A stretch of DNA of 64,000 bases from Desulfobacteraceae bacterium (GTDB lineage: Bacteria > Desulfobacterota > Desulfobacteria > Desulfobacterales > SKZT01): contig JAABTQ010000014.1 in assembly GCA_011389745.1 (NCBI GenBank), positions 16,266 through 80,265 of the forward strand, read 5' to 3'. Shown here one piece after another: positions 57,846-61,546 of the stretch. The notes under the pieces are model-generated. The model saw nothing but the letters and a program-made list of their open reading frames with translations. It ran no database searches and was not told the origin of the DNA. A program made the position numbers and the translations under genes. The stretch's first letter is position 1. Each line of letters opens with the position of its first letter.

Positions 57846-58219
57846 CAATTCGAAACTTGAATTATCTACAAATTTAGTGCATGAATATGCAAGTTATGTT
57901 GCCAGTTTGATTTCTCCACGATCGATGAAACATACTTTTTGAAATCAATAGCCTCGGAAGTGGGAACAATTGCCTGTATTTGAAATACAATTTATATTTC
58001 AAGAATTCCGTTAAGCTTTAACTAACACCGGACATGCCTGGTATATTGCAGGGCAGATATTTTTCACCAAATTTTTGGATGGCATTCATTCTTCCAGCAC
58101 TTTTGAAATCTTATGACACAACCAACCATTCGCACCGGCACGAACAATGCTGGAGAACACGGCCATTAACACTGGCCCGACCTGCACCATCGTCACAGCC
58201 ATTAAGAGAGGGAAGAAAA

Positions 58220-59104
58220 ATGATCGTCTTGGAAGAAAGTACGACAAATATGGATTTCCATCTGATAGGAGGCAGGCACCCGAATATGATTCGAATCGTT
58301 ATACTTTTTGTTGTTTTCGCACTTTTCGGCTGCGATGACAGTCAAAGCGAGATCCGTTTTGACAAGCAATCAGAGTACGAAAGGATCCTTGTCATAGATA
58401 AAAATGACAGGCGATATCTTCGTTTCGGTAATCCGAATTCCGCCAATGAAAGCGTTATTTCTCTATCGGATCCCAGAACCGTTCCTGCTGAATACATAAG
58501 GATTGCCGCCTTGGGGGCAATGCTGACCCCGAATCCGAATCGCGCCCTCATGATTGGCTTGGGCGGAGGGACCTATACTACCTTGCTGAGGAGACACTTT
58601 CCAAACCTGCATATCGACGCCGTCGAGATTGATCCGGTCGTGGTTGAAGCAGCCAAGACCTTTTTCGGGGTTCGGGAAGACGAACGATTCAAAATTCATG
58701 TTGCGGATGGAGCTATATTCGTTAGAGAAACTCAGAGCATTTACGATCTTGTCTTCATAGACGCCTACAGTGGAGAGGGCATACCTCAAGCGCTGTCGGG
58801 TCCGTCGTTTTTTGACGCCGTAAAAACTAAAACATCCCCCGAAGGAGTTGTTGTATTGAACCTGTTTAACCAGCATGGAAAAGAACAATCGTTTATCCAG
58901 GTCTTCAGAACCCGCTTCCCGCATACGGCCTGCGTCAGGTCCTCCGACGATCTCAATTTGGTTCTTTTTGGCAAAACATCCGATATGCCGGCCCATGCCG
59001 ATCTGATTGCTGCGACTCGAGGATTTTCCGCTGTTGCCGATCTTTCGTTCGACCTTGAAAAGATCGCAAAAAAACTCGGTATGGAATGCAGGGTCTCCGG
59101 TTAG
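58220..59104 (+). CDS. Spermidine-synthase-like methyltransferase-fold protein, possible lipoprotein
   Basis: 294 aa from the ATG at 58220, which has a GAGGGAAG site; ATG 58286 is an alternative and would start MIRIVILFVVFALFGCDD, a lipoprotein signal (LFGC). The core is a SAM-type fold: MIGLGGGTYTTLLRRHFPNLHIDAVEIDPVVVEAAKTFFG and DLVFIDAYSGEGIPQALSG, as in polyamine synthases and their non-catalytic relatives. The aminopropyl-transfer Asp pattern is only partly clear. The membrane anchor would be unusual for a biosynthetic enzyme. The 58034 start of the ORF track has no support. Confidence 0.75.
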   Translation: MIVLEESTTNMDFHLIGGRHPNMIRIVILFVVFALFGCDDSQSEIRFDKQSEYERILVIDKNDRRYLRFGNPNSANESVISLSDPRTVPAEYIRIAALGAMLTPNPNRALMIGLGGGTYTTLLRRHFPNLHIDAVEIDPVVVEAAKTFFGVREDERFKIHVADGAIFVRETQSIYDLVFIDAYSGEGIPQALSGPSFFDAVKTKTSPEGVVVLNLFNQHGKEQSFIQVFRTRFPHTACVRSSDDLNLVLFGKTSDMPAHADLIAATRGFSAVADLSFDLEKIAKKLGMECRVSG

Positions 59105-59288: not shown

Positions 59289-59491
59289 ATATGCGGTCCG
59301 GTAGCTATTTATACAACCGAAATAGAATCGCTAAATTAACCTCAATTTAACTTTGGAACTATTACTATCTATTGAACTATTTTTTCTGTTCTGATAATTA
59401 TTTGATTTTGAAAACCTACATAATGGTTCACTTTGATCAAGAGCAGCGACAGGGTTAATTTTGCAGCTGTTTCGAATTCGGAGACATAGAA

Positions 59492-60925
59492 TTGTACAAA
59501 AAAATCAGTAAATTATGTGCGTTTCATATCTATGAGGGATTGTGTGAAGGACTATCCCATTTTTCAGGCCCCAGCAGGGCAGCGGTCATTTATGCCACAG
59601 GTCGCAAAAATCCAATGTTGATCTATGACCCTCAGAATCTTCTGGAGGGACATGAGCCTAAACTCAGGGAACTTTATATAGATTCAACTGCCTGGCGAGA
59701 TGATGCTGTTGATCCTGATTTGTTGATGATTGACGGGCAGCCGATTCCGGAAAAAAATCTTTATCTGACAGGACTCATATCCAAAGGCGGCAGATCCCGT
59801 TCCATATTTTACCAAATGTGGTTTACCGAGCACCATCCGGACATGTGTTCCATCGGACCCACAGAGCGATGGCTTGAACATGCGGTTTGGCTTCTTTCCC
59901 ATGATGTCATCTCACAAGATTCAGCTTATCTCAACACATCCGGATATGTGCTTAGAGAGTATGCCACTCATGCCGTAAGGGATTATATTATCGATGAACT
60001 CAATTTTAACCTGGGGATGGATATTCAAATTCGTATTTATCCCGTTCTGGATGCTGTTCTGGGAATATCCAGAACTTTAGAGGAAGGTTTAGCACCGGTG
60101 GGCCGCATTGTTTTCGTTGAACCGGTACTCATGAAAAAAGTCAGTTTTCTCCTGCGGTTTCTCCCTTTTGAGCGCCCCGGCCTAACCAATTTCAAGCATG
60201 TGGTCAAGTTACTTTTAGCTGTCAGAAATTCTGATCGAACACTTGTTTCAGATGGAAAAAGCATCATCGGCATTGCATCTGGAAAACTGCCGAATTATCA
60301 TCTATCCGCTTATTTTCAAAGTGGCCATGGTTTTTTGGTCATCAACGAGCAACCCATATGCAGCTTTTATGACGGAAATTTTCATTCCTCAACGCGAAAG
60401 ACCAAACTTGTTGAGTTGGAAGAACTTTTATTAGAGTCCCATCTTATTGCATCTGATAAACAATCACTTCTTTTTAAGGTTGTAATGGAAATCGTTCATC
60501 ATGCAGGAGAAAAAAAGTATGGATGCACCCTGGTTATTGATCTTAACAATCCGCCAATAAATCTTTCCGGTCAAAAAATCGAACCACCTCTTGATCTTAA
60601 GATACCAAAGCTTTTAGACTTAACCAAGTCGCTCAGCAAAATGGACGGTGCCCTTCATATAGGACCCGATTTGAAACTTCACAGATTTGCCTGTATCCTT
60701 GATGGTCTTTCCATACCCAATGAGGACAGAGCACGAGGGGCCCGGTTTAATTCCGCCCTCAGATTCACATCCCAAAATACTAATACAATCGTAGTAGTTG
60801 TTTCCGCGGACCGTCCGGTTTCTCTCATTCAAGAGGGAGTTGAACTGACGGCCTATTGCCCCTGGAGACCCATCTCATCTCATGTGCATTTCCCACCAAC
60901 CCTTGCTGATTGGATCAACCGATAA
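59492..60925 (+). CDS. DisA_N/DAC-domain protein, possible diadenylate cyclase, with a long N-terminal region
   Basis: 477 aa, TTG start with GGAGA upstream. The C-terminal 100 residues have the DAC pattern: DGALHIGPDLKLHRFACILDG near residue 384 (DGA motif) and RGARFNSALRF near residue 414 (the GTRHRAA equivalent, in the archaeal/CdaZ-like form GSRYNSA), then NTIVVVVSADRPVSLIQ. DAC domains make c-di-AMP from two ATP. The first 370 residues are unrecognised and have no membrane segment. Active enzyme or sensor is open. Flanking genes give no hint. Confidence 0.72.
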   Translation: MYKKISKLCAFHIYEGLCEGLSHFSGPSRAAVIYATGRKNPMLIYDPQNLLEGHEPKLRELYIDSTAWRDDAVDPDLLMIDGQPIPEKNLYLTGLISKGGRSRSIFYQMWFTEHHPDMCSIGPTERWLEHAVWLLSHDVISQDSAYLNTSGYVLREYATHAVRDYIIDELNFNLGMDIQIRIYPVLDAVLGISRTLEEGLAPVGRIVFVEPVLMKKVSFLLRFLPFERPGLTNFKHVVKLLLAVRNSDRTLVSDGKSIIGIASGKLPNYHLSAYFQSGHGFLVINEQPICSFYDGNFHSSTRKTKLVELEELLLESHLIASDKQSLLFKVVMEIVHHAGEKKYGCTLVIDLNNPPINLSGQKIEPPLDLKIPKLLDLTKSLSKMDGALHIGPDLKLHRFACILDGLSIPNEDRARGARFNSALRFTSQNTNTIVVVVSADRPVSLIQEGVELTAYCPWRPISSHVHFPPTLADWINR

Positions 60926-61217: not shown

Positions 61218-61255
61218 GAAGCAATCCTTCATGGATGGATTGCTTCTTTTTTTTT
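61218..61255 (+). terminator. Strong rho-independent terminator upstream of csp
   Basis: GAAGCAATCC-TTCATGGAT-GGATTGCTTC is a perfect 10-bp stem followed by nine T. It lies 90 bases before the csp ATG and 290 bases after the DAC gene. It may end the DAC transcript, an unannotated small RNA, or attenuate csp. A TTGAAT-15-TATTAA sequence just upstream (about 61185-61210) could be a promoter. Confidence 0.85.
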
Positions 61256-61345
61256 GAACGGGTTCCGGTCAAGGTTTTGATTCTTTTCTTAAACGATCAA
61301 CTGAAGCATGGAATCCAAGCTTTTATGTTTAAGGAGGCAGATTTT

Positions 61346-61546
61346 ATGGTTAAAGGCGTGGTTAAATGGTTTAATGACAAAAAAGGTTTTGGTTTTATTG
61401 AACAAGAAGAGGGTGGTGATGTATTTGTTCATCACACGGCGATCAACATGCAGGGGTTTAAGACATTAAGTGAAGGAGACCGTGTCACATTCGAGGTTGA
61501 GGATAATCATCGGGGACCCGCGGCCAAAAACGTTACCAAAGTATAA
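61346..61546 (+). CDS. csp: Cold-shock protein, CspA family
   Basis: 66 aa from the ATG at 61346 with AAGGAGG 9 bases upstream; the 103-aa ORF of the track begins in the leader. RNA-binding motifs are KGFGFI (RNP1) and VFVHHTAI (RNP2). Cold-shock proteins melt RNA structure. The leader carries the terminator described above. No other gene is in the unit. Confidence 0.95.

Follow-up and report, generated by a model that had tools for sequence, protein, structure and literature searches.

Archaeal DacZ is a soluble protein with an extra N-terminal domain and a C-terminal diadenylate cyclase (DAC) domain, an arrangement also seen in the protein described here, and the DACND and DACNH domain definitions, together with a classification of DACs, are reportedly given by Galperin (2023). 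In S. aureus DacA, the Thr before the RHR motif contacts the phosphates, whereas the ribose is contacted by the Asp and Gly of HDG (PMC6368335). M. tuberculosis DisA neither binds ATP nor is active once its RHR has been replaced by AAA (PMC3328451). The DS-2 anti-phage system contains a DAC of the architecture DACNG-DACNH-DAC (NF053872), and mutating two predicted catalytic residues reportedly abolished its phage defence (PMC13092281). Here, we compare with these systems a DAC encoded in a 64,000-nucleotide stretch of Desulfobacteraceae DNA, termed the window, whose family is widespread in sulfate reducers. The novelty of this protein is a conserved active-site variant; it is otherwise ordinary for its family.

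Gene, domain architecture and predicted fold

The gene, its signals, and the domains of its product are as follows.

59480..59483, + strand: probable ribosome-binding site GGAG, by direct sequence reading
59492..60925, + strand: 477-aa DACND-DACNH-DAC protein with a TTG start; full-length homologues are 44-80% identical
59504..60019, + strand: DACND, a probable sensor domain, residues 5-176 (PF21749, E 7.6e-80, 266.9 bits)
60038..60349, + strand: DACNH, a probable sensor domain, residues 183-286 (PF21750, E 6.6e-26, 90.7 bits)
60494..60838, + strand: DAC (DisA_N) domain, residues 335-449 (PF02457, E 4.7e-13, 49.2 bits)
61218..61255, + strand: probable intrinsic terminator with a perfect 10-bp stem, a 9-nt loop and a T run, by direct sequence reading

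The ORF is intact, and its TTG start lies closely downstream of the GGAG. The nearest full-length homologue among the relatives in GTDB contigs showed 79% identity and belongs to the MAG Desulfobacteraceae bacterium CSSed162cmB_348. The terminator candidate is located approximately 290 nt downstream of the stop codon; the automatic terminator scan, with loops of up to 8 nt allowed, does not list this 9-nt-loop hairpin. The listed ORF of a cold-shock protein gene (window 61235-61546) has a start that overlaps the hairpin, and its true start is likely the Met at 61346 (MVKGVVKWF). At window 58034-59104, a spermidine-synthase-like protein of the methyltransferase fold has an unusual N-terminal stretch, and its true start is likely internal.

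All three domains were detected above the Pfam cut-off, which is 27 bits for each, in the order DACND, DACNH, and DAC within one protein. The original prediction had proposed a DAC-like domain and a search against DisA_N as its check, and the PF02457 match at residues 335-449 bore out the domain. Its description of a soluble protein with a C-terminal DAC and a large, probably sensory N-terminal region was also right. On the other hand, the N-terminal region that it had left unassigned is covered by DACND and DACNH, and the length before the DAC fold is approximately 310-330 residues rather than 370. Judging from the Pfam names and the classification attributed to Galperin, the architecture is not new, and the protein is an ordinary member of a known family.

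An affinity with archaeal-type proteins had been suggested as well. The NCBIfam DacZ model NF041371, however, gave no match with the protein up to an E value of 10. In a DAC-domain tree, the DACs of 23 DACND proteins formed one clade (support 100/100) that grouped with the DACNG/DACNH-type DACs, apart from CdaA, the position of a lone long DacZ-like branch being unsure. From the model search and the tree, we concluded that the protein is of the bacterial DACNH type, and the archaeal affinity was rejected. Outside its own family, its closest kin are bacterial DACNH-DAC proteins, among them the DS-2 DAC. Neither the CdaA_N domain of Pfam nor the NCBIfam CdaA model TIGR00159 matched the protein, and the NCBIfam DisA model matched weakly (11.7 bits; cut-off, 201). 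The sole other NCBIfam match was with the model DS2_3_antiphage (NF053872), which gave 61.8 bits over the DACNH-DAC part, with a curated cut-off of 630.

A full-length AlphaFold2 model based on 61 sequences had a mean pLDDT of 87.6 and a pTM of 0.77. Its C-terminal part matched crystal structures of CdaA and CdaM (Foldseek E ~1e-5, probability 1.00, TM by target 0.6-0.7), and the structural comparison with CdaA proposed in the original prediction therefore came out in favor of a CdaA-like predicted fold. The N-terminal 312 residues modelled alone reached a pLDDT of 90.1 and a pTM of 0.88. Nothing significant was found for this part in a PDB fold search (best E 0.013), the best matches being scattered over longin/TRAPP, GAF, and LOV domains with E values of 0.01-0.2, and a search of a viral fold library with the model gave no match. 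At most, the PDB matches point to a sensor fold of mixed alpha/beta type. Conservation within DACND was the highest in the following core.

59759..59884, + strand: most conserved DACND core, residues 90-131 (GLISxGGRSxSxFYQMWFTEHHPDMCSIGPTERWLEHA), mean column entropy 0.67 bits

The constraint on this core matched that on the DAC core (mean entropies of 0.67 and 0.70 bits, respectively), which fits a ligand or partner common to the family.

A conserved variant of the DAC active site

The two motifs on which the original prediction had relied were both found.

60644..60652, + strand: DGA motif, residues 385-387, aligned with HDGA of CdaA; D385 and G386 unchanged across all 61 sequences
60734..60757, + strand: RGARFNSA motif, residues 415-422, occupying the place of the canonical GTRHRAA in an alignment with CdaA and DacZ-like DACs

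D385, G386, R415-R418, and N420-A422 were invariant in the 61 aligned homologues, and residue 419 was Phe or Tyr. This invariance indicates that the motifs are not due to chance and that the active site, including R418, is strongly selected and not decaying. A joint MAFFT alignment placed DGA on DGA and GARFNSA on GTRHRAA, with Thr replaced by Ala, His by Phe or Tyr, and the second Arg by Asn. The (T/S)RHR triphosphate-side motif is absent from the window protein, which has ARFN and retains just the first Arg. Likewise, the canonical G-T-R-H-R corresponded to G-A-R-[F/Y]-N in 61/61 aligned members, while DG and the first Arg were retained. Three lines underlie this correspondence with CdaA, namely the Pfam model in common, the fold prediction, and the joint alignment; a profile-profile alignment of the DACND-protein DAC with the CdaA DAC gave no acceptable match (probability 2.4%). 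The same active-site class, GA/SR[F/Y]NS, also occurred in DACNH proteins of Priestia, Dyadobacter, Gluconobacter, Citrobacter, and viral contigs, and a Phycisphaera DACNH protein carried the variant GARLNAT.

Considering the contacts in DacA (PMC6368335) and the mutagenesis of DisA (PMC3328451), the DACNH class, as judged from its sequences, retains the ribose side of the site and has changed the phosphate side in a conserved fashion. The conservation of the change argues for an altered but real function. As RGARFNSA is a conserved departure from GTRHRAA, c-di-AMP synthesis cannot simply be assumed. By the mutagenesis of canonical DACs, the variant common to the DACND and DS-2 DACs ought to weaken ATP binding, and the name "diadenylate cyclase" for the whole DACNH branch depends on what this variant does.

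Distribution, gene neighbourhood and other c-di-AMP genes

DACND was identified in 30 of 96 related genomes (29 above the family cut-off) and in 24 of 395 genomes sampled across the phylum. GTDB contigs contained 469 related stretches, and the best 80 of the 469 were overwhelmingly from Desulfobacterota; the nearest relatives were Desulfobacterales, in agreement with the sulfate-reducer-like genome assumed originally. A set of 297 genomes of the phylum contained 18 DACNH proteins, every one of them in a genome with a DACND match as well. Two DACND genes contained an in-frame stop (TGA at L066 4269-4271 and TAG at L086 10271-10273). Recoding was rejected for them: the position of the stop varies, and gene damage or an assembly error is the probable cause.

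A congeneric genome has the window gene in the same order with the neighbouring HEAT-repeat gene and the gene of an FprA-like flavoprotein, indicating a chromosomal location and vertical inheritance within the genus. Phage records contained no match to the protein, and plasmids and viral contigs yielded distant, partial matches to the DAC part only; carriage of the gene by phages or plasmids was thus rejected. Gene clustering of 76 loci revealed no conserved neighbour of DACND genes. Among 146 near neighbours of the relatives, each PADLOC family occurred in three at most. The families listed, 25 of the 26 matched, included no CBASS cyclase, nor was one found among the neighbours of the gene in the window. 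The same library strongly recognised the CD-NTases adjoining plasmid DACNH-DACs of Citrobacter, Gluconobacter, and Priestia, which served as a positive control. A CBASS or defence-island context was rejected from the 76 loci and the listed PADLOC families.

The plasmid DACNH-DACs had a CD-NTase alongside in 3/7 records. These CBASS-type nucleotidyltransferases were observed at L188 4051-7725, L189 4046-7716, and L192 3743-6732 (Citrobacter, Gluconobacter, and Priestia), and a patatin-like phospholipase was also present at two of the three loci. The Citrobacter protein adjoining the phospholipase and CD-NTase carries DACNG; the Priestia plasmid protein has no recognised DACNG domain. At a viral contig edge (L136 1-1722), a DS-2-like DACNG-DACNH-DAC gene adjoins a phage-type integrase.

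Two further DACs are encoded in the own genome of the window, namely CdaA fused to YbbR and a DacZ-like DAC (G000:C13), the latter with the motif GSRHIAGA and 134.9 bits, below the DacZ-model cut-off of 430. A PgpH-type phosphodiesterase is also encoded, and no c-di-AMP riboswitch was found in this genome. Among 58 relatives, a DAC was detected in 44 and a PgpH-type protein in 54, and a c-di-AMP riboswitch was present in two genomes, neither with DACND. The DACND protein was the sole DAC in 4 of the 21 DACND genomes among these relatives (G012, G026, G041, and G048); G012 is a single contig of 99% completeness, and PgpH was kept in all four. A PgpH-type (7TM-7TMR_HD) protein without a detectable DAC occurred in 14/14 DAC-less relatives, all Desulfobacterota (G007, G008, G019, G022, G028, G034, G036, G038, G043, G047, G049, G050, G051, and G053). 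PgpH may have another substrate in these genomes, or they may contain a DAC of an unrecognised type. As PgpH is found in all 14 of them, it is no useful marker of c-di-AMP signalling and was discarded as such.

Predicted function and comparison with known systems

We propose that the window protein, as a member of the DACND-DACNH-DAC family, is probably a soluble diadenylate cyclase that stands alone and is gated by its sensor domains. DACND and DACNH would bind a cytoplasmic ligand or partner, the binding would alter the head-to-head meeting of the DAC domains, and the altered meeting would turn the formation of c-di-AMP from two ATP on or off. The cyclase assignment is supported by the DAC domain above the Pfam cut-off, the CdaA/CdaM-like predicted fold, and the invariant D385, G386, and R418; by the DS-2 DAC of the same class, whose defence depends on two predicted catalytic residues (PMC13092281); and by the PgpH-type phosphodiesterase in the own genome and the four genomes with no other DAC. 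The confident N-terminal model is consistent with sensor gating. Several results count against the assignment: the Thr that contacts phosphates (PMC6368335), the His, and the second Arg are replaced, and DisA with RHR changed to AAA is inactive (PMC3328451). Moreover, no published assay, ligand, or phenotype of the family was found in the literature, the own genome has no c-di-AMP riboswitch, PgpH occurs without a DAC, and the neighbours indicate no ligand or signal.

The conserved change on the triphosphate side, seen in every DACNH-containing DAC examined (Desulfobacterota, Bacillota, Bacteroidota, Planctomycetota, and Pseudomonadota) together with retained DG and one Arg, can also be read as altered chemistry, in which a true nucleotidyl cyclase with the GAR[F/Y]NSA site would handle another nucleotide or make a linear, mixed, or non-3',5' dinucleotide. 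Genomes often pair the DACND protein with canonical CdaA and a DacZ-like DAC, a pairing that would allow the DACND protein a product of its own. However, base recognition has no known dependence on the RHR side, direct evidence of another product was not found, and the DACND protein is the sole DAC in some genomes, so that we regard this alternative as rather unlikely. Extended to all DACNH-type DACs, both those with DACND in Desulfobacterota and those with DACNG or other domains in defence loci and on plasmids, the same idea would set them apart as a second class of catalysts with the DAC fold (GAR[F/Y]NSA for GTRHRAA) with different triphosphate chemistry or a dinucleotide other than 3',5'-c-di-AMP, recruited in Desulfobacterota to housekeeping signalling; we put this forward as a tentative and somewhat doubtful proposal.

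Loss of the Thr, His, and second Arg, all needed by canonical DACs, and the separate canonical CdaA of the own genome would also suit a DAC domain that is non-catalytic and, coupled to the N-terminal domains, serves as a receptor of a nucleotide or of c-di-AMP. This appears improbable given that DG and Arg418 are invariant and that four genomes have no other DAC to supply c-di-AMP; the need of the DS-2 DAC for its predicted catalytic residues points in the same direction, although a binding-only role could explain that too. Anti-phage defence, with infection sensed and signalled via a dinucleotide as in DS-2, would accord with the weak DS2_3 match over DACNH-DAC, the plasmid relatives beside CD-NTases, and the patchy occurrence in related genomes. 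We consider it very unlikely for this protein, because the match is far below the DS2_3 cut-off, the PADLOC matches listed for the near neighbours include no CBASS cyclase although the library recognises the plasmid CD-NTases, phage records are unmatched and plasmid and viral-contig matches are distant and confined to the DAC part, and the congeneric synteny shows vertical inheritance.

The proposed sensor-gated cyclase can be set beside four known systems. The archaeal DacZ type is represented in the own genome by a different gene, the DacZ-like DAC mentioned above. With DisA, the window protein shares the DAC domain, a non-His residue before DGA, and solubility, whereas its DAC is C-terminal and the DNA-binding HhH part is missing. 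With CdaA (DacA), it has the DAC fold and DG(A) in common, but it lacks the transmembrane CdaA_N and the His before DGA and has GAR[F/Y]N for GTRHR. With the DS-2 DAC (PMC13092281), it shares the DACNH-DAC module and the GA/SR[F/Y]NS class; in contrast to DS-2, no CD-NTase or phospholipase adjoins its gene, and it has DACND where the DS-2 DAC has DACNG.
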